DNA of 64,000 nucleotides from Streptomyces sp. P3 (GTDB lineage Bacteria; Actinomycetota; Actinomycetes; Streptomycetales; Streptomycetaceae), in NCBI RefSeq assembly GCF_003032475.1, contig NZ_CP028369.1:1984001-2048000 (forward strand), in the 5' to 3' direction. The notes beneath the pieces are model-generated. The model saw nothing but the letters and a program-made list of their open reading frames with translations, did no database searches and was not told the DNA's origin. The translations under genes and the position numbers were made by a program. Each line of letters opens with the position of its first letter. The first letter of the stretch is position 1. Positions 11,681 through 32,723 of this stretch are shown here, piece after piece.

Positions 11681-11830
11681 TTGAACCCTCAGTTTGGGAA
11701 GCTCGGGTTCTTTGCCAATAATTGCTGCGCTGACCTGCGGCGCAGTGGTTTCGAAGACTGGGACACCTGCGCTGCCAGTCTCCACTGTTCCCCGTGGTTC
11801 CCCGCACGATCTGGCACGCGTATGTCATGC
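11681..11830 (-). repeat. island repeat copy A with 11-bp-spaced sites
   Basis: Copy A of a roughly 140-bp unit seen four times in the island. Landmarks on the plus strand: CCCTCAG.TTGGGAAGCT, CTGACCTGCGG, CTGTTCCCCGTGGTTCCC, then TCTGGCAC at 11810 with a decayed second word 11 bp on. Landmark spacing equals copy B within 1 bp (119 versus 118 from CCCTC to CACGATC). Confidence 0.7.
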
Positions 11831-11833
11831 GGC

Positions 11834-12148
11834 TCACCGTGGCTTTGGTGGCCTAGGGACATCCTTGTCGATCAGCCCGTTGATGAACTCGACTGCGAAC
11901 CGGTGCGATTCGGGTGATACATCTGCGGGTTCGCTGGCGTACCAGCGGAAGGTGCCCAGCTCTCGTTCGGCCGAGTTCAGCCAGTGGGCCAGACGGTGAA
12001 GCTGCCCTCCGCTCAGCCTGATGGCGGCCTGGTGGACCCACTCCTCATCTGGCCCGGCGTAGGTCTCCAGAGCCATGACGGCCAGCTCGACCTGGCCCGG
12101 CTCAAAGACGAACTGGCAGAGGTCGCGGGCGTCGGGAGAAATCGGCAT
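11834..12148 (-). CDS. hypothetical protein, 104 residues
   Basis: Starts MPISPDARDLCQFVFE and reads as a compact globular protein with predicted helices (VELAVMALETYAGPDEEW, HRLAHWLNSAERELGTF) and FAVEFINGLIDKD near the end. Not recognised. The upstream in-frame ATG at 12262 would add 38 Arg/Pro-rich residues and is less likely. It directly precedes repeat copy A on its own strand and sits within the tRNA-Arg island. Codon bias is weaker than in core genes, consistent with transfer. Confidence 0.55.
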   Translation of the reverse strand: MPISPDARDLCQFVFEPGQVELAVMALETYAGPDEEWVHQAAIRLSGGQLHRLAHWLNSAERELGTFRWYASEPADVSPESHRFAVEFINGLIDKDVPRPPKPR

Positions 12149-12444
12149 ACGCCGAGGATGCGGCGTCCAGGGCTGTAGGACAACGAAGAGTTGTCGCCGG
12201 CCGGCGAAACCCGGACTGTGACACGTGACCTCTTCGTCCCGAACTCTCGGCTGGAGGGTCATGGCGGTCGGGTGGGCTGGTCAGCTAGCCACTGAGGGGC
12301 TTTGGCGGTCAGCTCCGGTTGCGGTGGTTGCAGTACTCCGCTGCTGTACAGACCAGATCCGGAGCGCGGCGTGAAGAGCTTTCGGGCGGGTATGTCCTAG
12401 GCACGCAACGTCTGGGCAGAGCCGACCGGGGGAGAGGCTTCGAG

Positions 12445-13002
12445 ATGGCGCTGGTTGACCAAGTCCCCACGCTGCTTGGAGTGGTGGTAGGCGCTGCCAC
12501 CTCCTACCTGGTCACTGTGACCACTGAGCGCTCTCGCTGGCGTCGTCAGCAAGCGGTCAGGTGGGATGAACGCCGCCTGTCTGCGTACACGGACTACGCC
12601 AGGGCCGTGAAGGAGGTTTGCATGATCAGCCTCCGCCTTGCGGCCGGTCGTGGCCTCACTGACTACCCATCGCCATTGGAACCTACGTCAGCGGTCCTCA
12701 GTGAGGCGGCGGCTGCCGAAGACCGGCGCGGTCACCTCTTGGAGAACCTTCGGCTCTTGACCGACACAGATACGATCACGGCCGCGCGCGTCCTCAACCA
12801 CGCTCTTTGGCAGTTGTCCTGGATGGCACACGGCAAGGTCCCGGCCACGCGAGAAAGCTGGGCGCAGGCATGGCATGAGTATCGCGATGCGCGCGACGAA
12901 TATCATCGCTGCGCACGAAAGAGCCTGGGGATCACCGGGAGCGCGGTTGCCCGTGATCAAACCTGGCCGCCACGGTGGATGGTTGCTGGCCGGCAGGAGT
13001 GA
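12445..13002 (+). CDS. membrane-anchored hypothetical protein
   Basis: 185 residues. ATG at 12445 follows GGGGGAGAGG at good distance, which decides it over ATG 12319. One N-terminal hydrophobic segment (VPTLLGVVVGAATSYLVTV) is followed by RSRWRRQQAVRWDERRLSAYTDYARAVKEV and a mostly helical cytoplasmic part. This is a recurrent streptomycete family (single helix, basic SRWRR.Q..RWDERR motif) without known function. It stands alone on the plus strand inside the island. Confidence 0.65.
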   Translation: MALVDQVPTLLGVVVGAATSYLVTVTTERSRWRRQQAVRWDERRLSAYTDYARAVKEVCMISLRLAAGRGLTDYPSPLEPTSAVLSEAAAAEDRRGHLLENLRLLTDTDTITAARVLNHALWQLSWMAHGKVPATRESWAQAWHEYRDARDEYHRCARKSLGITGSAVARDQTWPPRWMVAGRQE

Positions 13003-13386
13003 GTGGCCAAAGGCTTTGAGGTCTGTCCTCATCCTTATCAGGTCGGTCACAGAGGGGCATCAACGTTGGTGATCCGGCCGTGGTCCTCGGGCGATGGTTC
13101 GCCAGGGTTCGTCGCTGATCGCTGCCGTCCGGGGCTGTTGGTGTCAGGCGGTGGTGTCAGCCTCCAGGGGCGCACTTGACAGGTGCGCCCCTCACCCTCT
13201 CATCTGCGGCACGGTCATCCTCCATACCGATCCGGGGCCCGCCTGGGCCTCAGCCGACGACAGTCAGCCACGACGGCGGGCACGCCGCATGTGCCTCGCT
13301 GCATCCCTACCGACCTCAGTCGGGTTACCCGCGACCTTCCAGGGAAAGACCTCGAGTGCATCTCAGCGAGTCGGAGGGGGCTGCTC
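13003..13386. other. intergenic stretch with one strong hairpin
   Basis: No supported gene. It contains a perfect 10-bp inverted repeat AGGGGCGCAC/GTGCGCCCCT at 13166-13192 with a 7-nt loop, a plausible terminator. Words resembling GCCGTCCGGGG..TTG.TGTCA at about 13120-13160 recur at 14440-14475, suggesting further degenerate duplication in the island. Confidence 0.5.
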
Positions 13387-13635
13387 ATGAGCGATACATC
13401 ACGGGCGCGGCACGACAGGACAGAGCCGGAGCCGCCGCCCGGGCGCGGCTCCGATCGCTTCAGCGATGGTCCCCCTGATCCCCTCGCCTCGCTGCTGGCC
13501 AAGGTCAACAAGGGGGAACACATTTCGACCCCCGGAGACAACGCGGGTGCGGAAGACCGTGACCCTCATGACGAGGAATGGCGGGAACATGATCGCCACG
13601 GCCCCTATGCGCAGGGGCGTCGCCGGAAGAACTAA
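13387..13635 (+). CDS. small hydrophilic hypothetical protein
   Basis: 82 residues, highly charged (MSDTSRARHDRTEPEPPPGRG ... EEWREHDRHGPYAQGRRRKN), with LASLLAKVNKGEHIS in the middle as the only apolar patch. A strong ribosome site (GGAGGGGG) lies 7 nt before the ATG, which is the main support. No family is recognised. It is probably intrinsically disordered. Confidence 0.45.
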   Translation: MSDTSRARHDRTEPEPPPGRGSDRFSDGPPDPLASLLAKVNKGEHISTPGDNAGAEDRDPHDEEWREHDRHGPYAQGRRRKN

Positions 13636-13756
13636 CGCCTAGGGCGGAGTCCCCATCTGCGGCAGCGCGAGCGGGAACTTGGCGTGAGGACTACCCGCGG
13701 GCGGGAGCAAGCTCACGCTGCGTTGGGTAAGTACGAGATTCCGCGGCCGTACTGAG

Positions 13757-13912
13757 CTGTCGAGCCCTCAGCTTGGGAAGCTAAGGGCGCTCGCGAGAGG
13801 TTGCCGAGCCGACCTGTGGCGACGCCGTGTCGGAGCCTGAATCGCCGCCCGCCTGCTCCCCGCTGTTCCCCGTGGTTCCCTGCACGATCTGGCACGGGTC
13901 TGGCACGGCCTC
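13757..13912 (-). repeat. island repeat copy B with 11-bp-spaced sites
   Basis: Best-preserved copy. CCCTCAGCTTGGGAAGCT at 13765, GCTGTTCCCCGTGGTTCCC at 13862, then TCTGGCAC at 13888 and again at 13899, exactly 11 bp apart. The minus-strand gene at 13781-14305 reads through it, giving that protein a tail (VPDPCQIVQGTTGNSG) that probably is not native. Confidence 0.75.
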
Positions 13913-14305
13913 GTCCTCAAGCAGTGTGGCAAGTTCTCGTAGGTCGTTCGTGACCATGACTTGGGCGAGGCGCCCGGCGATGGACACGACCTCTGGCCAG
14001 GCAGATGACTGGAGATGCTCCGCGTCGGTGTCGTTGGGCGCCTCGGCTGCCGCAGCGTTGAGCGCGGCACCGAGTTCTCGCATGAGGACGACCTCTTCGT
14101 CACTTCGGAGGCTGATGCCGAGGTACCGCTCTGGCTCGTCGGCGTCGCAGAAGTCGTCGAAGAGTGTGTGGAAGACGTGGTCCAGGTTTTCGAACGCCGA
14201 CGGGTCGAGCCAGACGTCCCGCTGCCATGGTGGATTGGCCAGGGCCAGCACAACGGGTACGACGTGGACTCGGTGGTTCGCTATGAGTCGGGCGGCTTCG
14301 CTCAC
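13781..14305 (-). CDS. hypothetical protein resembling the SCO4402 family, with repeat-encoded tail
   Basis: 174 residues from a GTG start. The N-terminal 130 residues (ALANPPWQRDVWLD, HVFHTLFDDFCDADEPERYLG, EVVLMRELGAALNA, WPEVVSIAGRLAQVM) resemble a small family I know as SCO4402-like, of unknown role, several members of which look like immunity-type proteins. From about residue 135 on the frame runs through repeat copy B, so the original stop was probably lost. No toxin partner is visible next to it. Family assignment is tentative. Confidence 0.55.
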   Translation of the reverse strand: MSEAARLIANHRVHVVPVVLALANPPWQRDVWLDPSAFENLDHVFHTLFDDFCDADEPERYLGISLRSDEEVVLMRELGAALNAAAAEAPNDTDAEHLQSSAWPEVVSIAGRLAQVMVTNDLRELATLLEDEAVPDPCQIVQGTTGNSGEQAGGDSGSDTASPQVGSATSRERP

Positions 14306-14473
14306 GAATACGAGCGTAGTGAGTACGTGCTGATGAGGCGTCGGTGGTCTCGTAGCACCGCTTTAGGAGTTCGATGTCCTCTCACTCTGGATGGGGCCCA
14401 CCTCAGGCACCGGTGCCAAACGTGGGTGCCGAGTGACGCCGCCGTCCGGGGGCGTTGATGTCAACGTTGGATG

Positions 14474-14674
14474 TCAGCGGAAGAGCTCCGGCACGGGGCA
14501 GGGCTCCAAAGGTTCATCCGGCCGGTCGGCCCAGTTCCACCAGACATGCCGACCAGCGCACCTCCACAACGTCCGACAGGTGCGCCGGCCATCGTCCTCT
14601 CGCGCGCACAGGACGAAGCCGCCAGATTTCATGGGCCGGCTGCACTGGAGACAGGTCGGGGTGTCGTCGGTCAT
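14474..14674 (-). CDS. small zinc-ribbon-like protein
   Basis: 66 residues from the ATG at 14674. Pattern: CLQCSRPM near the start, VLC, CRTLWRC, and CPVPELF at the end, so up to five or six Cys in two clusters, likely a zinc knuckle. Trp-rich centre (RHVWWNWADRPDEPL). I recall very similar short conserved proteins in other streptomycetes, function unknown. The first Cys pair and GRRTCR suggest metal binding only; nucleic-acid binding is a guess. Confidence 0.6.
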   Translation of the reverse strand: MTDDTPTCLQCSRPMKSGGFVLCAREDDGRRTCRTLWRCAGRHVWWNWADRPDEPLEPCPVPELFR

Positions 14675-14884
14675 TCCGCGCACCTTAACGGAGCGACCCC
14701 TTCGTCCCGAAGCAACTTGGGTGGGGGCGCTGCCTTGAGCTGGTGTCCGTCTCACCTGCGCTGATGGTCCGTGGATGTGCGTGGGCGTCCGCTGTTGTTC
14801 GTCGGCGTTGTCACGCAGTCAGACACTCACCCCGTGCACGTCGGGCTACAAGTCCGCGGCTCGTTGGGACTGCAAGTGACTGGC

Positions 14885-15241
14885 CTACACAGCCTTGATC
14901 TGTTCCCCTTGCGCGGCAGTGATGGCGCCAGCTTCCAGCGCCACGGCGACGATATCCGTCGCGACCGCCGCCTTCATGGCGGTAACGGCATCGTTCATGC
15001 GGTCGGAGTTTCGCGGTGCTCCGACATGCCCAGGCTCCAGGTCACCTGGGAGGAAGTTCGCCACCTCGCCGTCGTGGCCCTCGAATGCGGCCTTGTCCAT
15101 CCGCACGTGAACGCGTTTGGTGCCTATGGTGACAACGGTCCCGTGTGACCCATGGTGGTAGAAGGGCCTGTCGCTTGGCACTCTTACCGTGACCTTGTCT
15201 CCGACTTTGAAGCTGCTCAGGGTCCTTCCACTGCCGAGCAC
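14885..15241 (-). CDS. hypothetical protein with SH3/KOW-like N-terminus
   Basis: 118 residues from GTG 15241. FKVGDKVTVRVPSD, HGTVVTIGTKRVHVRMD reads as a small beta-barrel (KOW or SH3-like) as in proteins that clamp RNA or DNA; the second half is a pair of helices (MNDAVTAMKAAVATDIVAVALEAGAITAAQGEQIKAV). No named family. The start is uncertain. Island location and weaker codon bias suggest transfer. Confidence 0.5.
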   Translation of the reverse strand: MLGSGRTLSSFKVGDKVTVRVPSDRPFYHHGSHGTVVTIGTKRVHVRMDKAAFEGHDGEVANFLPGDLEPGHVGAPRNSDRMNDAVTAMKAAVATDIVAVALEAGAITAAQGEQIKAV

Positions 15242-15662
15242 GCGAGCCCCTCTTGGACATGCCGATCAAGAGGCACTTCATAACGCCCCTCTGCCCTATT
15301 TGCACACCTGGCTCTGACGCTGCGTGGACAAGACGGAGGGCAGTCGATGTCGCCGGAACATCGAGGAACGCTCAGCCGGCACCGGCGCGGAGCGGACCTC
15401 GACGATTCAGGCGCCTCGATTCACCTCGACAGGTCCGCCGGATTCCCGGCCATGAACGAGGAACGGAAGCACCGCTTTAGGAGCGCGGTTGGGCGATCAT
15501 GGCTATTACCTGCGGATTCTCTGCCTTGCGCGACTGCTGGGCGGGTGCGCCTTGCGTACCCTGATTCCCCGCTGTTCCCGGCTCGTTCTGGCATGAGAGT
15601 GGCACGGCCCGGAGACCGTGCCACGAATCCTCGATGCGGTATTTCGCTGTACTGCTCAGCGC
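15242..15662. other. gene-poor stretch holding repeat copy C
   Basis: No open frame here has a ribosome site and protein-like composition. It contains island repeat copy C (15478-15610); the remainder looks like decayed sequence. Confidence 0.45.
15478..15610 (-). repeat. island repeat copy C with 11-bp-spaced sites
   Basis: GCGGTTGGGCGATCA at the left edge (shared with copy D), ACCTGCGG, GCTGTTCCC at 15571 and TCTGGCAT at 15587 followed by AGTGGCAC at 15598, again 11 bp apart. A gap of 10 bp between GTTCCC and the paired words distinguishes it from copy B. Confidence 0.6.
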
Positions 15663-15890
15663 CTACGGTTCGAGCCCTCCCCCGGTTCGGCGCCGGTACT
15701 TCCACGCGCGAAGCTCAAGCCAGGCGACCCAGCCTACGGACAATGTGATCGCAGTTGCGATCGCCTGCCTCCAAGTCTCCGGGACCCACTTGTGTGCCGC
15801 GACCGCCATGAGGCCGAACCATGCGCTCATCAGGAGGTACTCCCGAAGACGGGTCCGCAGGCGGGCGTCTGGCCGTGCCAGGTGCACCAT
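15663..15890 (-). CDS. small membrane protein
   Basis: 75 residues. ATG at 15890 is preceded by GAGAGGGGG, which decides it over the upstream start. Two hydrophobic helices (LLMSAWFGLMAVAAHKWV and AIATAITLSVGWVAWLEL) with basic ends (RLRTRLREY, WKYRRRTGG), so probably a hairpin in the membrane. Unknown function. It lies between repeat copies C and D, on the strand that precedes copy C. Confidence 0.5.
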   Translation of the reverse strand: MVHLARPDARLRTRLREYLLMSAWFGLMAVAAHKWVPETWRQAIATAITLSVGWVAWLELRAWKYRRRTGGGLEP

Positions 15891-15933
15891 GAAGATCCCC
15901 CTCTCTAAAACCGGAGGGTACAACGCGGCCAGA

Positions 15934-16100
15934 GGCGCGGTTGGCCAATCACGTAGCCAGTTTGGAAGATCGCGTACGCGGATGCGCGCTGACCTGGCGA
16001 GACGCTGACCTGCGCGCTTCTGGGACGTTCACCGTCGTTCCCCGGTGTTTCCCGCCGGTCGCCGCTGGGTCGGGCACGCAAGGGGCACGTCTTGGTCAAC
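15934..16100 (-). repeat. island repeat copy D with 11-bp-spaced sites
   Basis: GCGGTTGGCCAATCA at the left edge as in copy C, two GCTGACCTG words, GTCGTTCCCCGGTGTTTCCC, then TCGGGCAC at 16070 and AGGGGCAC at 16081, 11 bp apart. Confidence 0.6.
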
Positions 16101-16197
16101 TTCCATGCCACGCAGTCGCTGTGGTTGCCTTTCCGCCACCGGACTTGGTGGCCGCACTGCTGTTCAGGGCGTGTACGTGTCAGACACAATCGTACGC

Positions 16198-16884
16198 ATG
16201 TCGACATCGGACTCACCGTTCCCACTCCGGGCCGCGCAGCCTGCCTCCGCTGACCGTGTCTTCCGATCGCCCGCCGGCATTGCCACAGGAGCAGTGCTCC
16301 TTGTCGTCGTCCTGGGGCTCGGCCTCAGCGCGGTCGTCAGCACCGAGGGTGGTATGCCCTGGAAAGCCCTGGCGGGGATGCTGCTGGTGATTCCGCTGCT
16401 GATCGCCTTGACTCTGCGGCCCGCGATCTTCGCCAACGACCACCGGCTGCGTATCCGCAACCCCTTCCGCACCGTTACGCTGCCCTGGGGCGCCGTCTCC
16501 GGTTTGCGGGCTGGTCACTCCAATGAGGTCTTCGACCAGATCGGCACCAAATACCAGTTGTGGGCCATCCCGGTCTCTGCGCGCGGCCTGAAGCGAGCCA
16601 GCCGCGAGCGGGTCAGGCTGGCCGAGTCCTCGCTGAATCCGGGTGGCCCCATCCTGGACCGCCGCGGGCTCTTCGATGCGGGACCGCCCGACCGGCCGAG
16701 CGCCGAGGCAGAACGTCTGCGGCCGAGGTCCGACAGAACCATGGAGAGCCTGCGTGCGCTCCATGAGGCAGGTGCCATGACCAAGGAGGGCCAGGGTCAA
16801 CCGGAGGTTCGCTGGGCGTACGAGATCCTCGGCCCGGCGGCGGCGGGCCTGATGCTGCTGGTGGTCCTGCTCGCTGTGACCTGA
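16198..16884 (+). CDS. PH-domain membrane protein
   Basis: 228 residues. Two N-terminal hydrophobic segments (IATGAVLLVVVLGLGLSAVV and GMLLVIPLLIALTLRPAIF) are followed by a bacterial PH-like domain: DHRLRIRNPFRTVTLPWGAVSGLRAG, EVFDQIGTKYQLWAIPVS. A third hydrophobic segment ends the protein (AAAGLMLLVVLLAVT). The domain presumably binds something at the inner membrane face; the ligand is unknown. ATG 16198 has no clear ribosome site but CACAAT ends 9 bases upstream, so translation may be leaderless or nearly so. Confidence 0.75.
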   Translation: MSTSDSPFPLRAAQPASADRVFRSPAGIATGAVLLVVVLGLGLSAVVSTEGGMPWKALAGMLLVIPLLIALTLRPAIFANDHRLRIRNPFRTVTLPWGAVSGLRAGHSNEVFDQIGTKYQLWAIPVSARGLKRASRERVRLAESSLNPGGPILDRRGLFDAGPPDRPSAEAERLRPRSDRTMESLRALHEAGAMTKEGQGQPEVRWAYEILGPAAAGLMLLVVLLAVT

Positions 16885-17508
16885 CCCGAGATTCTCGGCG
16901 ACTGTCATGAGCCTCAAGCGATTGCACCGTCCTCAACCCACCACTCACCCCAGCTCCCATCCCGTCTGCCGTCGACCCACACACCGTGGAGCGGGCGCGG
17001 TTCCTGGCGTCCAGGTGGAGCGCGCCACTGTACGAACGACCTGGAGGCCCTGGGCCGCGACTGCTCGGCTCTGCCTGGGTCGATGGCAGGCGGGATGGGA
17101 GCCTCCAGCGCACGCTCTCCACGGGCCGGCACCCGCTGACGGTGCCCCCGCCATCTCGGAGCCTGAGCACCGGAGGCACTGCTGTGACGTGCTGCCGCCC
17201 TGTGGTGATCACCCCATGACCCCCGGACCTACCCGCTGTGGGCGCGCGTCGGCGCAGCGCGGGCGGAGCGGGCCGAAGGCAGGAGCGTCGCCCGCGGCGG
17301 AGCGGAGCGCAGCCGGGGCTTGAACCCGTGAAGAGGGTTGTAACTCAGTTGGCCAGGCAGAACACGTGCGCTTCACGGTTGCTGGCCCGCAGAGTGTCAT
17401 GTTGGCCGCGCCGTTGCAGATTTGACGGTAGCTCTGACGGCAACGACGGCACACGGAGGCGCGTGCTCGCCGCCCCTGGGCGAGCGGCTCACAACGTACT
17501 GCCCGATC
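16885..17508. other. gene-free right end of the tRNA-Arg island
   Basis: No supported gene. It contains the large imperfect palindrome at 16954-17101, a GC-rich segment near 17220-17320, and a stretch at 17329-17375 (GTTGTAACTCAGTTGGCC) faintly like a tRNA 5' end but without a foldable cloverleaf. It ends at the second att copy. Confidence 0.5.
16954..17101. repeat. 148-bp imperfect inverted repeat
   Basis: The left arm from 16954 (CTCCCATCCCGTCTGCC...) pairs with the right arm ending 17101 (...GGCAGGCGGGATGGGAG) with two mismatches over about 26 bp. Pairing resumes inside, with TCCAGGT facing ACCTGGA and GCGCGG facing CCGCGA. The centre is near 17028. As RNA it would form one long hairpin; as DNA it could be a small non-autonomous element. 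Confidence 0.6.
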
Positions 17509-17567
17509 CTACGGATCAGAAGGTTGCCGGTTCGAATCCTGCCGAGTGCACACAGGTCGAAGGCCCC
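17509..17567 (+). repeat. attachment-site copy 2 (att, distal end of island)
   Basis: Copy of tRNA-Arg from the anticodon loop to beyond the 3' end, followed by ACACAGGTC and AAGGCCCC as at the intact gene, with two substitutions in 59 bp. It marks the far end of the island and is not a functional tRNA because the 5' half is absent. Confidence 0.85.
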
Positions 17568-17592
17568 GTCAGTTCAACTGACGTGGCCTTCG
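17558..17592 (+). terminator. hairpin terminator beside att copy 2
   Basis: CGAAGGCC..GTCAGTT/AACTGAC..GGCCTTCG stem, almost perfect. Probably the original terminator of the tRNA-Arg gene before island insertion. Confidence 0.75.
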
Positions 17593-17678
17593 ACATCAAC
17601 TGGTGACATCAACGCCCAGCGTGCTGCCTCTTTGGATCTTCGCCTCCAGGGTCCCGGACGAGCGATACAGTGCGCGCC

Positions 17679-17972
17679 GTGGACATACCCGATTGGTTCG
17701 CCTGGATCTTTCTCGGCCTGGTCGTCTTACAGGTCCTCGGTCTCGTGCCCATCCTCCACGGACTGCGCGGACTCGACTCCGCGGTGCGCTTCAAGGCGCG
17801 TCTCGACCTGCTGGATGCAGTCGGTGGCCTGCTGCTCTTTGGTGGCTCGTTTCTGAGTTTCGTGGTGGCGGGCCCCTGGGTGTGGATCGCGGTCCCCGGT
17901 TGGGTGCTCATGTCCGTTGGCTACGCCATAAAGGGCGTCCACCGGCTGCGCGCCCGTCGGCCCGCTGCCTGA
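17679..17972 (+). CDS. small integral membrane protein
   Basis: 97 residues from GTG 17679: WFAWIFLGLVVLQVLGLVPI, LLDAVGGLLLFGGSFLSFVVAG and WVWIAVPGWVLMSVGYAI form three membrane helices. The protein ends in a basic tail (RLRARRPAA). TACAGT lies 7 bases before the GTG, the spacing expected of a leaderless transcript, which supports this start over the GTG or ATG upstream. No family is recognised. It is the first gene past the island. Confidence 0.6.
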   Translation: MDIPDWFAWIFLGLVVLQVLGLVPILHGLRGLDSAVRFKARLDLLDAVGGLLLFGGSFLSFVVAGPWVWIAVPGWVLMSVGYAIKGVHRLRARRPAA

Positions 17973-17979
17973 TCCGGGC

Positions 17980-18060
17980 GACAGCCTTGCACTCGTGACC
18001 GCCGCCCAGGACCGGGCCCGCTCAGCCATCGACACCACCCCGCGCGTCCTGTCGATGCTC
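17980..18060 (+). pseudogene. fragment of the TPR-type regulator gene
   Basis: 81 bp, close to 90% identical by eye to 10422-10502 and reading DSLALVTAAQDRARSAI and TPRVLSML in one frame. It is cut off at both ends. It shows that another copy of the regulator, or a rearranged piece of the island, once lay outside the present att copy. Confidence 0.7.
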
Positions 18061-18122
18061 GCCGGGTGCACGTGGTCCGACCGGTGGCGGCCTGGTCGAC
18101 GCGGACGTATCCGAGGGTCAGG

Positions 18123-18848: not shown

Positions 18849-18905
18849 GAGAGCGAGCATGCTCGTGCTGCGGCCGGGGACCAACACCGTCTCGGTAGTG
18901 CAGCG

Positions 18906-18920
18906 ATACCGGGCCGGTAT
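18906..18920. promoter_or_regulatory. LysR-type operator (T-N11-A palindrome)
   Basis: ATACCGGGCCGGTAT is a 15-bp dyad whose outer T and A (18907, 18919) satisfy T-N11-A. It sits midway between the divergent SDR and LysR genes. Confidence 0.65.
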
Positions 18921-18981
18921 TGATCTGCCGCCTGCCACCCGCCATCTGCGGTCTGCCGTCTGCCGTCATTAGCCTGGACTC

Positions 18982-21304: not shown

Positions 21305-22963
<1,659 letters not shown>

Positions 22964-26516: not shown

Positions 26517-26565
26517 GACCGCACTCCTTCCAGGACCGGGACGGGCGATGCGTGCGGACTGCCGG

Positions 26566-26610
26566 TGACAGAACGGTTTCTGACTGTCCGTCAGATACGA
26601 ACCGCTGTCA
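26566..26610. promoter_or_regulatory. nested palindromes in the divergent promoter region
   Basis: Core TCTGAC-TGTCC-GTCAGA at 26579-26595, flanked by CGGTT/AACCG and outermost TGACAG (26566) / CTGTCA (26605). It sits between the MaoC-DUF35 operon (minus) and the primase-polymerase gene (plus). TetR-type operators often have this form. Confidence 0.65.
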
Positions 26611-26692
26611 AGCCTCCGACAGGGCCGGCCGGCGCGGCACACCCCGGCACGCACCCCTTCCCTATTTCGAACGCGTGTACGACAATGAAGGC

Positions 26693-27628: not shown

Positions 27629-27973
27629 ACCCTCCGGCGCGCCGGCCCGCATCGACCTGTACCTCCGACTGAATGAGCCGATGCTCGGCTTCGCCGCGCG
27701 GCAGTCGCTCCTGAGTCGTCCGGCTGGCCTCTCCGGTGAGGACGACGAGAGTGGACAGGCCCGCTGGTACAGCGCCGCCGTGGTGTCGGCCCCCATGCTC
27801 CGTGACTGCCGAGACCGGCAGTCACGGAGCGTGAGGGGTCTTACATGCCCGCCTCGCCGGAAGCTCAGGGGCCGTCATCACTCGCCCCCTTGCAGCTGCC
27901 GCCGGAAGCCGTTCCGCCGACCGCGCTGTAATCTCGACGCCCCGGATCACCCGCATCGAAAAGCGAGTCTGCC
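27629..27973. other. intergenic region with a perfect 14-bp hairpin
   Basis: It contains GCTCCGTGACTGCC/GGCAGTCACGGAGC at 27797-27830 with a 6-nt loop, probably the terminator of the primase-polymerase gene although 170 bp away. No gene is seen. Confidence 0.55.
27797..27830 (+). terminator. hairpin, likely terminator
   Basis: Perfect 14-bp stem, 6-nt loop, no T-tract. Confidence 0.6.
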
Positions 27974-28264
27974 GTGTCCGTACGTGAGACCTTCACCGAC
28001 CTGTTCAAGCGCACGACGAAGACTGCCGAGGGCGCGTCATTCGCAGTGGAACAGCTCTGCCAGTGCTCGCCGGCATGGCCTGGTCTGGAGACGACAGCGA
28101 ACGGCTACATGCTCCCCGCCAAGGTGTCCAGCCACTACAGCGTTCTCACCAACCCCGAAGCAGGACCGTTTGTCGCACGCTGCACCGGCTGTCACGCCCG
28201 GTACCCCCGCCCGTGGGTGATCCCGCCGGACGCCCCCATGCCGTTCGACTGGGCCCAGGAGTGA
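27974..28264 (+). CDS. small Cys-containing hypothetical protein
   Basis: 96 residues from GTG 27974. MSVRETFTDLFKRTTKTAEGASF starts with an amphipathic helix; EQLCQCSPAW and VARCTGCHARYP give four Cys in CxC and CxxC pairs that could bind zinc. Not recognised. It ends 23 bp before a triple 11-bp-spaced repeat next to tRNA-Ser(TGA), so it may be cargo of a former integrated element. Confidence 0.55.
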   Translation: MSVRETFTDLFKRTTKTAEGASFAVEQLCQCSPAWPGLETTANGYMLPAKVSSHYSVLTNPEAGPFVARCTGCHARYPRPWVIPPDAPMPFDWAQE

Positions 28265-28287
28265 CAAGCGACGCGCGCCCCGGATCC

Positions 28288-28316
28288 TGGCCCACAGATG
28301 GCCCATAGACGGCCCA
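28288..28316 (+). repeat. three 11-bp-spaced GGCCCA words (arm-like sites)
   Basis: TGGCCCA at 28288, TGGCCCA at 28299, CGGCCCA at 28310: exact 11-bp period, 118 bp from the 3' end of tRNA-Ser(TGA). Confidence 0.65.
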
Positions 28317-28371
28317 TACGCACTGGTCAGAGCTGGGATACCGGCGAATCAGGATGAGACAGGGTGAACGC

Positions 28372-28407
28372 GGAGGGGGTGCCGCTCCGGAGAGTGGCAC
28401 CCCTTCC
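28372..28407. terminator. hairpin on the 3' side of tRNA-Ser(TGA)
   Basis: GGGGTGCC/GGCACCCC stem with flanking GGA/TCC and a 12-nt loop. On the minus strand it follows the tRNA; on the plus strand it has TTCC after the stem. A decayed version is at 30296-30326. Confidence 0.6.
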
Positions 28408-28433
28408 GCCCTGCAAGTCTCTGACCTGCGCTG

Positions 28434-28520
28434 CGGTGGGTGTGGGATTTGAACCCACGGTGACATCGCTGCCACGACGGTTTTCAAGACCGTTCCCTTA
28501 GGCCGCTCGGGCAACCCACC
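28434..28520 (-). tRNA. tRNA-Ser(TGA)
   Basis: Minus strand. Acceptor GGTGGGT/ACCCACC, anticodon arm with loop CTTGAAA (anticodon TGA), long variable arm, T-arm GTGGGTTCAAATCCCAC. CCA is not encoded. A decayed copy lies 1.9 kb away at about 30361-30437. Confidence 0.95.
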
Positions 28521-28586
28521 TGCGCCCCGGCCCACCTGGGGCGGAGCGGGTACAGACTACCGGGCGCGGGCTGCTCGCGGGGCCCG

Positions 28587-28605
28587 TGGTCCACACGGGG
28601 TCCAC
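28587..28605 (+). repeat. 11-bp-spaced GTCCAC pair
   Basis: TGGTCCAC at 28587 and GGGTCCAC at 28598. The same arrangement is at 30504 in the second repeat copy, where it is partly decayed. Confidence 0.55.
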
Positions 28606-28671
28606 TGGCTCTGTTTCGGTCACCAGCGCCCTCCCGCGATCAGCGGCTGCCAGGCCTCACGCCAGTCCGCG

Positions 28672-29031
28672 GAAAGCACCGTCCGCGAGCACATCAAGGA
28701 GTTCGGCACTGCCGAGGACGGCCGGCTCTTTCGCGCGCCCCAGGGCGGCCACCTCCTGTCCAAGGAGTACGGAGAGGCGTGGAAGATCGCCCGGCTCGCG
28801 GTACTGACGCAGTCCGAGGCAGCCTCGCCGCTGGCTGACGTCCCATACTCCATGCGCCACGCGGGCGTCTCGCTCTGGCTTGAGTCCGGCGTCTCTCCGG
28901 CCGAGGTCGCACGCCGGGCGGGCCACAGCATCGCAGTCCTGTTCCGCTTCTACGCCAAGGCAACTCACCGCAACCAACAGCGCTCGAACGACCAGATCGA
29001 ACGGGCTTTGAAGGCTGCTGAACGAGAATAG
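28672..29031 (+). pseudogene. tyrosine integrase, C-terminal remnant
   Basis: An intact frame of about 119 codons without a usable start: VREHIKEFGTAEDGRLFRAP, then VPYSMRHAGVSLWLESGV (box II Arg-His), EVARRAGHSIAVLFRFYAK (catalytic Tyr) and a stop at 29029. The N-terminal domains and box I Arg are gone. It belongs to a different integrase lineage from the remnant at 10007. It lies between the two copies of the tRNA-Ser duplication and points away from the tRNA gene. Confidence 0.8.
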
Positions 29032-29410
29032 AGAGAGCCGTCCGTTCGCCCAACAGGTGCCATCTTCACCCCCCTGACGGGGAGGGGATGGCACCTTCTT
29101 GCGATCGCCTACGCCCTGTGTTCCGCACGATCTGGAGCCCTTGGAGCAAGGGCCTGGCGGCCCGGCTGACACTCCGCCAGCACCCCGCACAGGTGATCGG
29201 CAACCCTCGATGCCCCCGGCGTCCGGAGGGGAGTAACAACCCCGGTTCAGTGAAGTCGAGTTGGTCATGTCACGGGACCGTTACGGCGTCGTCTTGGATC
29301 AAGGAGCGAGGCATCCGCTCGGCCCCTGGGCCCCTCATAATGATCAAGCACGTGCCGAGGGACGCCCGCACCTCAGCCCCAACCAGTAGATCACGCAGGG
29401 GAACTGACAC
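29032..29410. other. intergenic region after the integrase remnant
   Basis: The terminator at 29055-29096 is followed by about 300 bp in which I see nothing except the promoter region expected for the lipoprotein gene at 29411. Confidence 0.45.
29055..29096 (+). terminator. hairpin terminator of the integrase remnant
   Basis: AGGTGCCATC/GATGGCACCT outer stem with CCCC/GGGG inside, followed by TCTT. Confidence 0.7.
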
Positions 29411-30046
29411 ATGATCCGCAACTGCCGCAAGGCCTTCCTTGTCTCCGTCGCGCTCCTGGGCGGCACCCTGCTGATGACGGCGTGCAACCAGAGCGACGCC
29501 GACAGCTCCTCCGGCAAGGCCGACGCGTCTGTGGCGGCGAGCAAGTCTGGTGCGACAGGCGTCAGCGGTGCCTCCGCGTCCCCCTCCGGTTCCGGGAACA
29601 CGTCCGGCGGCAGCACGTCTGGTTCCGGGAAGACGTCCGGTGGCAGCACGTCCGGCGGCAAGACGTCCGGTTCCGGGAACACGTCCGGCGGCAGCACGTC
29701 TGGTTCCGGGAGCACATCCGATTCCGGCGAGACCGTCGTGGAAGGCCTCAACAAGGGCAAGGGCGTCAGCGGCACCTGGTACGGCATCGTGCGGTACGTG
29801 GCACCCGGCAAGTACCTGGTCGACGGTCCTGCAGCCAAGGGCTCCGGCGGTGAGCAGCAGGCGTTCTTCCTCGCCGAGGACACCGTGATCCTGGGCGGGG
29901 GCCAGATCTGCGGCACCGCCGGCTCGAAGGTGGACGCCCCCTGCGAGGAGGCCGACCTGGAGAAGGCCGCCAAGAAGGGCGTGGAGGCCGAGGTCGTGGT
30001 CAAGAACGGCACAGCCACTCAGATCACCGACGGTGCGCTCCTCTGA
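29411..30046 (+). CDS. lipoprotein with Ser/Gly/Thr repeat linker
   Basis: 211 residues. MIRNCRKAFLVSVALLGGTLLMTAC is a lipoprotein signal (Cys25). Residues about 56-105 form a low-complexity linker of GSGNTSGGSTSGSGKTSGG-type units, encoded by short DNA repeats. The C-terminal domain (GTWYGIVRYVAPGKYLVDG, FFLAEDTVILGGGQICG) is beta-rich, with two Cys in the window CG...PCEEA. The role is unknown; the design is a membrane-anchored domain on a flexible stalk. AGGGGAAC precedes the ATG. It lies inside the tRNA-Ser duplication. Confidence 0.65.
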   Translation: MIRNCRKAFLVSVALLGGTLLMTACNQSDADSSSGKADASVAASKSGATGVSGASASPSGSGNTSGGSTSGSGKTSGGSTSGGKTSGSGNTSGGSTSGSGSTSDSGETVVEGLNKGKGVSGTWYGIVRYVAPGKYLVDGPAAKGSGGEQQAFFLAEDTVILGGGQICGTAGSKVDAPCEEADLEKAAKKGVEAEVVVKNGTATQITDGALL

Positions 30047-30067
30047 TCCGATAGCTCGCAACGAGCA

Positions 30068-30108
30068 GAGGCGGTCTGCCGGAAGCCACACTTCCGGCAG
30101 ACCGCCTC
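30068..30108 (+). terminator. strong hairpin terminator of the lipoprotein gene
   Basis: Perfect 18-bp stem GAGGCGGTCTGCCGGAAG and its complement, 5-nt loop, 21 nt after the stop. Confidence 0.85.
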
Positions 30109-30221
30109 ACTCATTGCCGTGTCTTGGCACTTCCGGCCTCACACGGTTCTGGGCAACGGTCCATGCTCCAGACCGCAAGGGGTGCTGACCAGTGGGTACA
30201 AGGTTCGCTTGTGCCGGACTC

Positions 30222-30240
30222 CGGTCCACGTCTGGTCCAC
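30222..30240 (+). repeat. 11-bp-spaced GGTCCAC pair
   Basis: CGGTCCAC at 30222 and TGGTCCAC at 30233, about 120 bp from the decayed tRNA copy, the same placement as 28288 relative to the intact tRNA. Confidence 0.6.
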
Positions 30241-30264
30241 AGCACTGAGTCACACCGTGACAGA

Positions 30265-30527
30265 GGTTGATCAAAGTGAGACAGCTCGCCCGCAGAAGGG
30301 GCGCCCCTCATCGAGAAGCACCCCTTCTGACCAGCACGTCTATGACCTGCGGAGTGGTCGACACCCGGGCCCATCGGAACGCTGTCACGCTCTCGCGTTT
30401 TTCAAGACCGTTCCCTTAGGCCGCTCGGCAACCCACCTGCGCCCCTGCCCACCTGGGGCGGAGCGGGTACAGCGTACCGGCACCGAGTGTTGCGCGGGGG
30501 CCGTGGTCCACGCGGAGTCCGCTGTCC
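30265..30527. repeat. direct repeat copy 2, with decayed tRNA-Ser
   Basis: It matches 28349-28612. The tRNA 5' half and upstream flank are well kept (30398-30471); the T-arm and 3' acceptor strand are unrecognisable, so this copy is a pseudo-tRNA. Confidence 0.7.
30361..30437 (-). pseudogene. tRNA-Ser pseudogene
   Basis: Minus strand. 5' acceptor strand GGTGGGTT, D-arm and anticodon loop CTTGAAA are retained, with one base deleted in the D-arm; the 3' half has diverged and cannot pair. Confidence 0.65.
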
Positions 30528-30902
30528 CCTTCCTCCGCTCGAAGCCCTGCAACCTTCCGCTCCGTAGGGTCGGGCGCCGCGCCATGAGAAGTGCCTGCGG
30601 CCACGCACTCCAGTCGCCGAGGTCAGCGATCACGCGCGCGTGCGTCGGGGATGGCGTCAGCTCCGACCGGATGCCCGGCCACACCGACGGTTGGGACGCA
30701 GTGTGTGACGACTCGGGAGAGGATCTGCGCGAGAGCGCCCGTCCATGCGGTGGCGAGAGTGAGAACCGCCGCAAAGGTAATGGCCTGGCGCTTCAGCCAA
30801 CCACCGCGCGAGCATCGCTGGCACGCTCGCCGCCATCACGCCGAAGCCGGTCAAGGACAAGCGTGGTGCTCCCGCTCCGAAAGTCCTCCGCATCGCGGCT
30901 AC

Positions 30903-30940
30903 GAGGCGTCACCCCACCTGCTGAGGAGAGGTGACGCCTC
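30903..30940. terminator. hairpin GAGGCGTCACC/GGTGACGCCTC
   Basis: 11-bp perfect stem, 16-nt loop; possibly the terminator of the gene whose remains lie to its left. Confidence 0.55.
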
Positions 30941-31100
30941 CGCCTTTCACCCAGGTGCTCCGGCTCGGCTGCCACTCGAAACCGGCAAACCGGGAACCTG
31001 CGCATCCGTCTCTCCATCCCCATAGTCAACGTGTCCCGAAAGCCGCACCGATCCGACCAACGGGCGGCCGGGATTCATCACAGGGGGAAGGACCCGACTC

Positions 31101-31979
31101 TTGCGCAACAAGCTCGGCCGTACGATCACCGGCGCAGCAGTGCTCGCCCTCACCGCCGCCGGCGCAGTCACCGGAACGGCGCACGCCTCCACAGACGTCC
31201 CCGACGCCACCGGAGCCATAACAGAAACAGCGGACGCCTCCATAAGCGCTGCCGACGACGCCTCCACAGACGTTGGCGACAACACCTCCGCAGCGGTTGC
31301 CGATTCCGTGTGGATCTCAAGAGGGTGGCCCGCCCCTTCAACCGATCCGCACCTTCCTGACGCAAACGGCAACATCCCCGCCGATCAGGGGGAGGAGCCG
31401 CAGCCGCTCATCGACGAAGGCATCTATCGCCCTGACGCCGACCCGGCGTCCACGTCGCCAGATTCGGCAGATTCGGCAGCCGCAGCCGCAGCCGCAGCCG
31501 CAGCGATCAGCGGCAACGGAACGGCCAACTGGGCGTACAACAACCTGGACACTCGGTGGGAGTACAGGACGGACTGCGCGAACTTCGTCTCGAAGGCTCT
31601 GTACCACGGGGGCGGGATGAAGATGCGCCCCGGCGGCCGCAAGGCGGACAACGCTTGGTGGCAGGGTAGGTACGGGTTCGGCAAGAGCTGGAGTTGGACG
31701 AGCGCGGACTACCTCCGGCGGCACGTGACCAAGTGGCGGAACGGCGCGATCCAACCGCACGAGTACAACGCCAAGGTGGGGGATCTCGTCTTCTTCAAGT
31801 GGAAGAAGGAGAGGATTTACAACCACGTGGCGATCGTCTCGTCCATGGTGCAGGGGCACGCGGGGATCGTGCAGCACGGCCTGAAGAATCAGACCACCCT
31901 CCACGAGGTAATCACTCGGTACAGTCACACCTCGAACCCGATCGAGAAGGTCACGATCGTCAGGCCCAAGACCCGCTAG
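31101..31979 (+). CDS. secreted amidase-domain protein (Amidase_6 type)
   Basis: 292 residues starting with TTG; GGGGAAGGA 8 nt upstream supports it. The signal peptide ends at TAHA (about residue 29). Then comes an Ala/Asp/Ser-rich linker with a run of nine Ala near 126-134, and the domain: NWAYNNLDTRWEYRTDCANFVSKALYHGG (Cys158) and YNHVAIVSS (His241), the Cys-His pair of NlpC/P60-like putative amidases that cut peptide or amide bonds in the cell wall. The next gene, 16 bp on, encodes a lipoprotein and is probably co-transcribed. Confidence 0.75.
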   Translation: MRNKLGRTITGAAVLALTAAGAVTGTAHASTDVPDATGAITETADASISAADDASTDVGDNTSAAVADSVWISRGWPAPSTDPHLPDANGNIPADQGEEPQPLIDEGIYRPDADPASTSPDSADSAAAAAAAAAAISGNGTANWAYNNLDTRWEYRTDCANFVSKALYHGGGMKMRPGGRKADNAWWQGRYGFGKSWSWTSADYLRRHVTKWRNGAIQPHEYNAKVGDLVFFKWKKERIYNHVAIVSSMVQGHAGIVQHGLKNQTTLHEVITRYSHTSNPIEKVTIVRPKTR

Positions 31980-31995
31980 CAACAAGGAACATGAG

Positions 31996-32556
31996 ATGCC
32001 CAGGTTGAAGCAGAGCCATGCAGCGGCCGGATGGCTGGCAGCAGCAGTGCTGCTGACGTCTGGATGTGCTGTCCTCGACAGCAGCTCTGCCGACGCCAGA
32101 GGGCCGGGCGCGTCCTACGAGCAGGCGTACGCCGACCACGAGCCATTGCATGTGGTCGGCTACCCCTCCACCGGCTCGTTGCTGGTGATGCAAGAGCTCG
32201 TGTGGGACATCGCCGACGGCAGGACGGCTGAGCTCCGCAAGCTGGCGACGGGCGACAGCAGCGATGCGGTAGCCCAAAAGACCGCCGAGAACTGGATCAA
32301 GGGCTTCGGAGCCGGCGCCCGCGGCAAAGTGACAGGCGATTTCTATGACGACGGTTCAGAACGCCAGGTCGTGGTCCTGTACTTCCATGGCACCCACCAG
32401 GTCAAAGAGTTCACCGTTCGGCTCGACGGCGATGCGGGCAAGGAGGACTGGCGGGTTCTGATGAAGTCGACCGATTTCAAGGACGCCACCCAAGCTCCCA
32501 GCTGGGCGCCGAAGGAGCCGGGAGGAACCGGCTCCACCATGAAGAACAACAACTGA
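31996..32556 (+). CDS. lipoprotein of unknown function
   Basis: 186 residues. The signal with lipobox LTSGC predicts a lipidated exported protein. The rest (EQAYADHEPLHVVGYPSTG, ENWIKGFGAGARGKVTGDFYDDGSERQVVVLYFHG, EDWRVLMKSTDF) resembles small NTF2-like or lumenal proteins but no family is certain. ATG 31996 follows AAGGA; ATG 31991 is too close to it. It forms a two-gene unit with the amidase-domain gene, ended by a terminator 18 bp downstream. Confidence 0.65.
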   Translation: MPRLKQSHAAAGWLAAAVLLTSGCAVLDSSSADARGPGASYEQAYADHEPLHVVGYPSTGSLLVMQELVWDIADGRTAELRKLATGDSSDAVAQKTAENWIKGFGAGARGKVTGDFYDDGSERQVVVLYFHGTHQVKEFTVRLDGDAGKEDWRVLMKSTDFKDATQAPSWAPKEPGGTGSTMKNNN

Positions 32557-32573
32557 TCGCGTGGGCACCCGAG

Positions 32574-32612
32574 GCCCCCGCAATCCGGAACGAGCCGGAG
32601 GGCGGGGGCTTT
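32574..32612 (+). terminator. hairpin terminator of the amidase-lipoprotein unit
   Basis: GCCCCCGC/GCGGGGGC with inner CCGG/CCGG, followed by TTT. Confidence 0.75.
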
Positions 32613-32704
32613 CCCCCTCCCATTTCACGACGCCCCGCGCCCTCTGGCCCGCAACAGCGCAAACCCTCTGACCAGGCGCTGACGTGCTGTTTGTCTCGCA
32701 ACGC

Positions 32705-32723
32705 TGGTCCACGCCTGGTCCAC
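32705..32723 (+). repeat. 11-bp-spaced TGGTCCAC pair
   Basis: Two identical 8-bp words at 32705 and 32716, the cleanest pair of the second family. Confidence 0.65.

Follow-up and report, generated by a model that had tools for sequence, protein, structure and literature searches.

Tandem words beside tRNA genes in a Streptomyces window as probable arm-type sites of tyrosine integrases

The short tandem words found near tRNA genes in the window (the whole 64-kb stretch of Streptomyces DNA analysed here) are very probably, with a probability of roughly nine in ten, arm-type sites of tyrosine integrases, located on both arms of attP and left by several decayed elements. This reading, which the first-pass annotation had proposed in outline, is supported by pairs of words flanking the core on both sides, P and P′, at set distances in the tRNA-Ser(TGA) and tRNA-Gly(CCC) types, and by the many pairs of related elements that adjoin tyrosine integrase genes, an extra N-terminal domain being predicted for the Ser-type enzymes. 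Each attP would harbor a core in the tRNA anticodon arm, flanked on each side by a single tandem pair. Such a pair would accommodate two integrase N-terminal (arm-binding) domains next to each other, the remainder of the integrase would act at the core, and bridging between arm and core would build the recombination complex. Protein binding, bridging, docking on one DNA face and the role of the N-terminal domain as reader are all steps that we infer from the arrangement of words, cores and genes.

Word pairs and element ends in the window

Spacing (d) refers to the start-to-start distance of repeated words, a gap of 3 between two 8-bp words corresponding to d = 11. Nine loci had been annotated as carrying 8-bp words repeated at exactly 11 bp; words or their decayed forms are present at all nine coordinates, but only two of the pairs (13888/13899 and 32705/32716) are exact in the register given. 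Another exact spacing-11 pair is found at 28300/28311, in a register shifted relative to that annotation. The pairs at 28587, 30222 and 28288/28299 (TGGCCCAC/TGGCCCAT) differ by a single mismatch, those at 30504 (TGGTCCAC/GAGTCCGC), 15587 and 16070 are decayed further, and the second word at 11810, noted earlier as decayed, is indeed missing from the sequence. TGGTCCAC occurs five times in the window, every copy on the + strand and within these pairs. Exact period-11 8-mers were not in excess over the 64 kb (5 at d = 11, compared to 2 at d = 10, 4 at d = 13 and 8 at d = 16), and the count at d = 11 with one mismatch allowed (47 places) is only slightly above the 25–42 places scored at other spacings between 8 and 29 that are not multiples of three. 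Since no clear period-11 excess is seen, window statistics alone would not prove the repeats special. They are compatible with chance or compositional repeats, whereby the many spacings and words available would yield some one-turn repeats near tRNAs, and this origin could hold for either of the decayed copies (15587 and 16070) when each is considered by itself.

Table 1. Features of the tRNA-Arg(ACG), tRNA-Gly(CCC)-type and tRNA-Ser(TGA) element ends in the window.
Position	Strand	Feature	Evidence or remark
9064..9137	+	tRNA-Arg(ACG), attachment gene of another element	tRNA prediction (ARAGORN); part 9095-9154 duplicated at 17509-17568, 96.7%
9187..9207	-	Arm pair TGCTGTAC/TGCTGTAC, period 13	Identical 21-mer in L277
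10019..10366	-	Integrase C-terminal remnant, nearest class R integrases	tblastn 35-38% to L228/L277
11689..11828	+	Core of tRNA-Gly(CCC) type at 11689-11703 (1 mismatch); P′ arm at 11810 with TCTGGCAC, second word lost	
13768..13906	+	tRNA-Gly(CCC)-type core 13768-13782 (exact) and P′-arm pair 13888/13899	73% duplicate of 11683-11827
15564..15605	+	Probable P′ arm in decayed form, TCTGGCAT/AGTGGCAC preceded by TTCCCCG words; no recognisable core	
16037..16088	+	Probable P′ arm in decayed form, TCGGGCAC/AGGGGCAC preceded by TTCCCCG words; no recognisable core	
17423..17451	-	TGCCGTC/TACCGTCA words, far side of second tRNA-Arg att copy	
17509..17568	+	Second tRNA-Arg att copy	Duplication
17592..17612	-	Arm pair TTGATGTC/TTGATGTC, period 13	
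28288..28317	+	P-arm words TGGCCCA x3 (third CGGCCCA), 11-bp period, C-type tRNA-Ser(TGA) element	Sequence; core at +191
28433..28520	-	tRNA-Ser(TGA), attachment gene, core 1	ARAGORN; core 15-mer with 0 mismatches
28587..28605	+	P′-arm pair TGGTCCAC/GGGTCCAC, 108 bp from core	Sequence; same form at ~-108 in L058, L072, L092
28687..29028	+	Integrase C-terminal remnant, element A (T-type)	tblastn 89-91% to L056/L058
29411..30046	+	Lipoprotein-like ORF (cargo), between integrase remnant and P arm	Open frame; lipoprotein label from sequence only
30222..30240	+	P-arm pair CGGTCCAC/TGGTCCAC, element A, core at +175	Sequence, core distance
30397..30480	-	Core 2, decayed tRNA-Ser copy with 5′ half and upstream region retained	76% duplication 28355-28607/30277-30524
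30504..30522	+	P′-arm pair, element B, second word decayed	Sequence
30772..30897	+	Integrase fragment, element B, from N-terminal third of the protein	tblastn 83% to L056
31101..31979	+	Cargo gene with CHAP / Amidase_6 domain	Pfam
32705..32723	+	P-arm pair TGGTCCAC/TGGTCCAC, element B	Sequence

The layout of the tRNA-Ser region is best explained by two tRNA-Ser(TGA) elements in tandem (A and B) and an additional, third type of arm next to this tRNA [Table 1]. What had been read as a TGGCCCA triple at 28288/28299/28310 does consist of three words at 11 bp, but the third is CGGCCCA and, compared to the consensus of 25 C-type P-arm copies, the locus amounts to an arm of two words plus one additional 11-bp unit. 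A search for a core beyond the P-arm pair of element B found none; the gene flanking tRNA-Ser in five of six tested relatives picks up again at ~32868-32900, past this arm.

The four TCTGGCAC loci had been assigned to a tRNA-Arg island. Because the core recognisable at two of them (11689 and 13768) is the anticodon arm of tRNA-Gly(CCC), the four loci are not tRNA-Arg integrase sites, and their grouping with the tRNA-Arg(ACG) element is ruled out by the core sequence; the tRNA-Arg att copies have period-13 words. The TCTGGCAC loci are P′ arms (left ends) of tRNA-Gly(CCC) elements, two of them clear and two probable. These ends lie 74-79 kb from the only tRNA-Gly(CCC) match of the genome, in an orientation opposite to that expected. 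The period-13 tRNA-Arg arm pairs (9187-9207 and 17592-17612) were absent from the first-pass annotation.

Word pairs at attachment cores of related elements

Ser-type pairs were followed in 79 loci sampled solely by the resemblance of their integrase to the remnant in the window, and not by word. On both strands of these loci, TGG[TC]CCA pairs at d = 11 numbered 61 in 66,800 bases near att cores versus 3 in 2,846,580 bases elsewhere, that is, 0.913 per kb near the tRNA-Ser(TGA) core and 0.00105 per kb far from it. An equal density away from tRNA genes and integrases, which the first-pass annotation had named as evidence against its own reading, was thus not what we found, the pairs being concentrated ~870-fold at attachment cores. 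When pairs with up to two mismatches and cores with up to three mismatches in 15 were counted in the window and the 79 loci, a tRNA-Ser core was located within 400 bp of 93 of the 103 Ser-type pairs and was missing within that distance from the other 10; 64 pairs clustered at +172 to +179 (P), and 13 and 9, respectively, at -83 to -85 and -107 to -109 (P′). A blind scan of 61 genomes for TGGTCCAC pairs, on the other hand, yielded gap 3 in only 5 of 48, a result in keeping with chance. The word is therefore informative only beside att sites. Among the four gap-3 genomes other than that of the window, one (L042/L048) had the pair by tRNA-Ser(TGA), and the loci examined in the other three had no tRNA beside it.

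The variable letter of the Ser-type word was next compared with the resident integrase. Of 39 tabulated loci with an intact integrase, 35 had a P arm (36 arms in total), each reading TT or CC at the variable letter. All 18 T-type integrases had a TT arm and 16 of 17 C-type integrases a CC arm, L112 being a C-type integrase with a TT arm. P′ letters were at odds with the resident integrase in T-type L064 (CC) and C-type L099 and L102 (TT), and the best P′ arm of L067 was mixed; such discordant arms may come from neighbouring or older elements. One Ser class has the 5′ half of the tRNA, together with the upstream region, on the element side.

As to the Gly type, the gap was exactly 3 in 76 of the 143 TCTGGCAC...TCTGGCAC pairs with gaps of 0-30 found in 150 genomes of the genus, followed by gap 1 with 19 pairs. 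Enrichment at attachment sites extended to this type: among 43 exact pairs examined in 40 loci, 27 had the anticodon core of tRNA-Gly(CCC) at a fixed position (+111 or +113 in 11; -120 to -127 in 16), and 16, some of which adjoin other tRNAs, had no such core at the expected place. Nine of the 11 P pairs were located within the 3′-terminal part of an integrase frame, one was ~107 bp past such a frame, and one had no recognised integrase.

Some of these positions might suggest regulatory operators, for instance for autoregulation of int or the tRNA, placed at element ends by coincidence, since the -108 class of P′ pairs is upstream of the tRNA 5′ end and some Gly P pairs overlap with the 3′ end of int. 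Yet the latter pairs are at the end of int rather than at its promoter, and the conserved quantity is the distance to the core, making this explanation highly implausible. Excisionase (recombination directionality factor) sites, to which cooperative tandem binding would occur so as to bend one arm, deserve somewhat more weight but are still unlikely: such sites would be expected to be tandem and confined to one arm, whereas the pairs described here place the same word on both arms, and the word varies with integrase class. Period-10 tandem motifs of the TTCCCCG type, present in 11 of the 16 P′ arms and none of the 11 P arms of the Gly type, and of the CAGGGTGA type, present in Ser P arms, may be excisionase sites. 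Also in favor of this possibility, BldC, a winged-helix protein likened to the directionality factor RdfS, is reported to form filaments in which each molecule spans one DNA turn (PMC11963761).

Spacing classes and integrase lineage

In each of the 84 integrase-tRNA systems (83 loci), the integrase gene is directed toward the 3′ end of the tRNA; 73 of these systems had not been chosen by word and were used for the spacing count. Sixty further regions had been taken from the best matches listed, roughly in listing order, passing over some of those located on short contigs or within recombinase clusters. Exact tandem 8-mers were found at d = 11 in 20 of the 73 systems, at d = 12 in 8 and at d = 13 in 9, compared to an expectation of ~0.34 systems for each of these spacings and to four systems at most in 200 shuffles. 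Together with the set core distances and the ~870-fold enrichment in loci not selected by word, the shuffles exclude chance for the families, and leave chance or compositional repeats a very improbable source of the words as a whole.

The constant 11-bp spacing claimed earlier holds for the Ser and Gly families but not for the tRNA-Arg(ACG) sites (13 bp) or for other families (12 bp), and a universal 11-bp spacing is ruled out by the 12- and 13-bp systems among the 73. Class R integrases were associated with both 12- and 13-bp spacing (4 and 14 rows, respectively), and L203 and L218 have a word in common at different spacings. The same procedure recovered, next to tRNA-Pro in L271 and L279, GTCACGCAG-like words with a spacing of 12 bp; the integrases of these two loci are putative pSAM2 relatives.

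Comparison of words, targets and integrase sequences suggests that the arm word follows integrase lineage rather than tRNA target. The word correlated with N-terminal identity (partial r 0.27) and not with target (-0.03), in a test weakened by five Ser rows whose period-10 repeat (four of them CAGGGTGA-like) is not the arm word. The lineage feature tracked by the word is probably the N-terminal domain. Because the N-terminal and catalytic domains vary together in identity across the full set (partial correlations 0.11 and 0.07, the same five period-10 Ser rows included), this domain assignment rests on a few contrasts. The integrases of L263 (Val) and L143 (Gly), which are 68% identical in the N-terminal domain and 43% in the catalytic domain, both carry CTGGCACG, whereas those of L245 and L271 (both Pro-CGG), 63% identical in the catalytic and 37% in the N-terminal domain, have unrelated words. 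No Pfam arm-binding domain was detected in 10 integrases, two of which (L099 and L017) were also below the Phage_integrase cut-off. The N-terminus of a Ser-type integrase is predicted to comprise three strands plus one helix, with block pLDDT values of 80-92, in a single AlphaFold2 model (mean pLDDT 74.3, pTM 0.48, 24 rows) of which the N-terminal fold alone was used; the whole model resembles tyrosine recombinases, lambda Int among them, with low TM scores (0.25-0.33 by query). Arm word and spacing (11, 12 or 13 bp) might then constitute a modular code read by the N-terminal domain and inherited independently of the tRNA target, the target being switched with the arm code kept, or target and catalytic domain being kept with arm domain and words swapped. 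Such a code would be readable from sequence alone and would type decayed elements devoid of an integrase; we consider the odds of this proposal to be even.

Relation to known systems and significance

The mechanism is of a known kind. In pSAM2 and pACPL, two actinomycete integrative and conjugative elements, repeats flank the att identity segment at a tRNA gene as they do in the window, and the pSAM2 integrase is reported to bind att-flanking repeats and to need them for efficient recombination (PMC3364876). The published repeat, GTCACCCAGTTAGT(T/C)AC(C/T)CAG, is read here as two words 12 bp apart, whereas the window has other words at a spacing of 11 or 13; the GTCACGCAG-like words of L271 and L279 resemble these integrase-bound repeats (PMC3364876). 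A GTCACSCAGTTAGNCAC-like word with 12-bp spacing, as in the pSAM2 type, was not among the words and spacings of the window. Lambda Int and the AB-domain integrases of the Tn916/Tn1549 group recognise arm sites apart from the core through an N-terminal domain to which the putative reader in the window may be likened (PMC8138268), and IntS of ICEMlSymR7A has five arm motifs in attP (PMC11963761). Words, site number and layout differ from these systems, the window having one pair per arm with its words in one orientation relative to the core. Tandem integrative elements of Frankia and Streptomyces are likewise stacked at one tRNA (PMC3218068), but those of the window are decayed and recognised mainly by their arm words.

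The literature searched, from which subscription journals were mostly missing, yielded no description of spacing classes for the arms of Streptomyces integrases, a silence that does not prove that none exists; with the arm words themselves as query, none of the best matches concerned integrases. To our knowledge, few actinobacterial elements have experimentally mapped arm sites. Sequence-based attP maps with a core and both arms may now be proposed for the tRNA-Ser(TGA) and tRNA-Gly(CCC) families, and a simple search for a tandem word with a period of 11, 12 or 13 bp, in the interval from the integrase stop codon to the tRNA, nominates candidate arm sites in many other elements. Such sites could serve to design a minimal attP for integration vectors, to name the kind of integrase behind a scar after gene loss, and to ask whether the arm-recognition module evolves separately from the one that governs target choice.

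Tandem words at tRNA-Ser(TGA) cores

Judging from sequence comparison, the short tandem words beside the tRNA genes of the window very probably represent arm-type sites for integrases, of a kind already known; for these families and spacings, no match was found in the searchable literature. The first-pass annotation had described nine loci with 8-bp words, and these words were located where it had placed them. Exact 8-bp pairs at 11 bp were confirmed at 13888/13899 and 32705/32716, but most other loci carry one to few mismatches, and 11810 is a single word only. Spacing 11 was not clearly enriched across the whole window (five exact places for 8-mers; 47 places with one mismatch allowed vs 25-42 at other spacings of 8-29, multiples of three excluded), and the case therefore has to rest on relatives.

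The frame ending at 29031 contains the C-terminal part of an integrase. A search with the integrase remnant protein alone yielded 91 relatives, the best 80 of 91 being kept (79 loci). In the window and these loci, 103 pairs of TGG[TC]CCAC words at 11 bp (up to two mismatches) were found, 93 of which lay at most 400 bp from the tRNA-Ser(TGA) anticodon 15-mer, or core (up to three mismatches). Relative to the core, 64 of these 93 pairs lay at +172 to +179 (P arm of attP), 23 on the opposite side (P' arm; 13 at -83 to -85, one at -103 and nine at -107 to -109) and six at other distances, including that at window 28288 (+191). When the density of pairs away from attachment sites was compared across the 79 loci, it amounted to 0.00105 per kb as opposed to 0.913 per kb near cores, where spacing 11 accounted for 61 of 67 Ser-type word pairs at spacings 7-30. 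This density comparison was the check that the first-pass annotation had itself named as able to refute its proposal, and the proposed function, with its predicted binding by integrases, survives. Most P-arm copies also carry a TGATC/TGGTC half-word 25 bp past the first arm word.

Integrases with 67% identity or more to the remnant were associated with TGGTCCAC (T-type), and those at most 65% identical with TGGCCCAC (C-type), this cut having been set after the fact. A P arm was visible in 35 of 39 tabulated loci with an intact integrase, and the variable letter was identical in both words of all 36 arms from these 35 loci, as would be expected if both words were read by one protein. All 18 T-type integrases had a TT P arm, to which L083 (L-numbers designate loci from related genomes) adds a CC arm at a different core; a CC P arm was seen for 16 of 17 C-type integrases, the exception being L112. 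Agreement with the integrase was poorer for the P' arm, visible in seven loci of the same 39-locus table: its letters matched in L083, L100 and L104, mismatched in L064, L099 and L102, and were mixed in L067. T-type tRNA-Ser elements often hold 0.6-3 kb of extra DNA between integrase stop and P arm (L055, L057, L060, L063, L065, window 29031-30222), with just ~0.12-0.15 kb in L056, L077 and L078; in most C-type elements, ~140 bp separate integrase stop and tRNA.

Spacing and arm words across integrase-tRNA systems

From 175 integrase frames, 84 (83 loci) with a tRNA at most 1 kb downstream were taken; without exception, their integrase reads in the direction of the tRNA 3' end. Leaving out 11 systems chosen by word gave 73, 33 of them tRNA-Ser(TGA). 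The 11-bp spacing, initially thought constant, is not: exact tandem 8-mers occurred at 11 bp in 20/73 systems (eight targets), but also at 12 bp in 8/73 (four targets) and at 13 bp in 9/73 (three targets), against an expectation of ~0.34 systems for each and a maximum of 4 in 200 shuffles. Spacing 16 was found in 16/73 systems, mostly as a CTCTGACCTGC motif beside tRNA-Ser, spacing 10 in six (CAGGGTGA), and spacings 15, 21 and 18 in five, four and three, respectively; all remaining spacings from 6 to 30 were seen in at most one system each. By integrase N-terminal class, spacing was 11 in 9/9 rows of class G, 13 in 14 rows and 12 in four of class R, and 11 in 19, 10 in eight (mostly the CAGGGTGA motif) and 13 in one of class S. 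At tRNA-Pro, L271 and L279 carry GTCACGCAG-like words 12 bp apart that are close to the pSAM2 and pACPL repeats, reported as integrase-bound (PMC3364876), and serve as a positive control by resemblance.

In 39 systems after dereplication, word similarity showed a partial correlation of 0.27 with N-terminal identity given target, and of -0.03 with target given N-terminal identity; N-terminal and catalytic domains were not separable (0.11 and 0.07). Pairs with different targets had a mean best 8-mer match of 6.6 and a common spacing in 65% when N-terminal identity was at least 0.5 (37 pairs), vs 5.3 and 21% below 0.3 (504 pairs); for the same target and identity below 0.4 (10 pairs), the values were 5.4 and 40%. 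Single contrasts set the two domains apart: Val-TAC L263 and Gly-CCC L143 share a word, being 68% identical in the N-terminal and 43% in the catalytic domain, and Pro-CGG L245 and L271 have different words, with 37% N-terminal (over 38 residues) and 63% catalytic identity. L263 and L233 share the Val-TAC target and differ in class, word and spacing; L203 and L218 share a word at spacing 13 vs 12. The predicted Ser-type integrase structure has an N-terminal three-stranded sheet plus helix (block pLDDT 80-92), which we take to be the usual shape of an arm-binding domain, and the model in its entirety has matches among tyrosine recombinases, lambda Int being one of them, at low TM-scores.

tRNA-Gly(CCC) and tRNA-Arg(ACG) sites

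Pairs of TCTGGCAC with gaps of 0-30 numbered 143 in 150 genomes, 76 having gap 3; 40 regions with gap-3 pairs, plus 20 whose pairs had other gaps, were chosen from the pair list, largely on contig size. The 40 regions held 43 exact pairs, and the tRNA-Gly(CCC) anticodon 15-mer lay at +111 or +113 in 11 (0-1 mismatch), at -120 to -127 in 16 (0-3 mismatches) and at neither place in 16. In a random control, such a core (up to three mismatches) turned up in 35 of 2000 170-base stretches. None of the 20 other-gap regions had tRNA-Gly(CCC); an integrase was present in two of them, at a distance of ~1 and 2.6 kb to the pair. Nine of the 11 P pairs lie within the end of an integrase frame and that of L151 ~107 bp past one; no integrase was seen in L149. 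Where a pair lies inside the integrase gene, its two words are in different reading frames, 11 not being divisible by three; this speaks for selection at the level of the DNA. When up to three mismatches to the probe were allowed, TTCCCCG-type words preceded 11/16 P' pairs vs 0/11 P pairs.

The Gly-type loci of the window had been grouped with tRNA-Arg, wrongly: a tRNA-Gly core lies at -121 from 11810 (one mismatch) and at -120 from 13888 (exact), and the tRNA-Arg copies have period-13 words. At 15587 and 16070, the TTCCCCG layout is preserved but no clear core is seen, and all four loci are read as putative P' arms at the left ends of tRNA-Gly(CCC) elements. TTCCCCG-type words of 10-bp period directly precede the Gly-type words (11787-11809, 13855-13887, 15564-15586, 16037-16069) and are candidate excisionase sites. 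An exact P pair adjoins the genome's own tRNA-Gly(CCC) (G000:C1 1921370, +), where the integrase frame lacks the N-terminal part present in L143. L277, a tRNA-Ala system, has exactly the 21-mer of 9187-9207 as its arm, and its integrase shares ~38% identity with the remnant at 10019-10366. Of the two copies of a 79-bp direct repeat (10427-10505, 17985-18063; 91% identical), one lies within the tRNA-Arg island and the other outside it.

Features of the tRNA-Arg(ACG) island and the tRNA-Ser(TGA) locus
Feature	Position	Remark
tRNA-Arg(ACG) att copies	9095-9154 and 17509-17568	
Period-13 tandem word pair	9187-9207	TGCTGTAC
Integrase remnant	10019-10366	nearest to class R proteins
Period-13 tandem word pair	17592-17612	TTGATGTC
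C-type P arm	28288	one 11-bp unit more than consensus of 25 C-type copies
tRNA-Ser(TGA)	28433-28520	
P' arm	28587	
Integrase C-terminal remnant	28687-29028	
Lipoprotein-like ORF	between integrase remnant and P 30222	
P arm	30222	
Decayed tRNA copy	from 30397	
P' arm	30504	
Integrase fragment	30772-30897	
CHAP/amidase gene	between integrase fragment 30772-30897 and P 32705	
P arm	32705	

The tRNA-Ser(TGA) locus and possible island rearrangement

Past the last P arm, the old neighbor gene of the tRNA resumes at ~32868-32900 (73-85% identity); it sits just past the tRNA-Ser 5' end in L056, L060, L065, L076 and L091, five of the six relatives tested (not in L107). Given this and the order of parts, two decayed elements, A and B, separate tRNA-Ser from its old neighbor. 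Several C-type elements carry repeats between P arm and tRNA-Ser, CAGGGTGAGA with a 10-bp period (28344-28366 and Ser-type relatives) and CTCTGACCTGC with a 16-bp period.

In P' arms of the -84 class, tRNA identity stops right after the anticodon-loop CAAGA in 10/13 (exceptions L073, L101 and L104), which points to a crossover at this place. The -108 class comprises nine copies, that of the window among them; here, identity runs on through the tRNA 5' half and upstream region, and ARAGORN found a full tRNA in 7/9; the 5' half and promoter of the window's working tRNA-Ser may, we infer, be element-derived. A full tRNA-Ser gene with upstream region adjoins the P' arm in L058, L059, L061, L072, L092, L116 and the window (28433-28605), L058 having two full tRNA-Ser(TGA) copies.

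tRNA-Ser(TGA) and tRNA-Arg(ACG) lie on the same strand, 16-38 kb apart, in 8/8 comparison genomes, with tRNA-Gly(CCC) ~315-490 kb ahead of tRNA-Ser on that strand in 6/8. In the window genome, tRNA-Ser (28433, -) is inverted relative to tRNA-Arg (9064, +) and just 72 kb separate tRNA-Gly from tRNA-Arg. This suggests inversions that have their endpoints inside these islands, and the tRNA-Gly left ends, misplaced and inverted as they are, fit such inversions.
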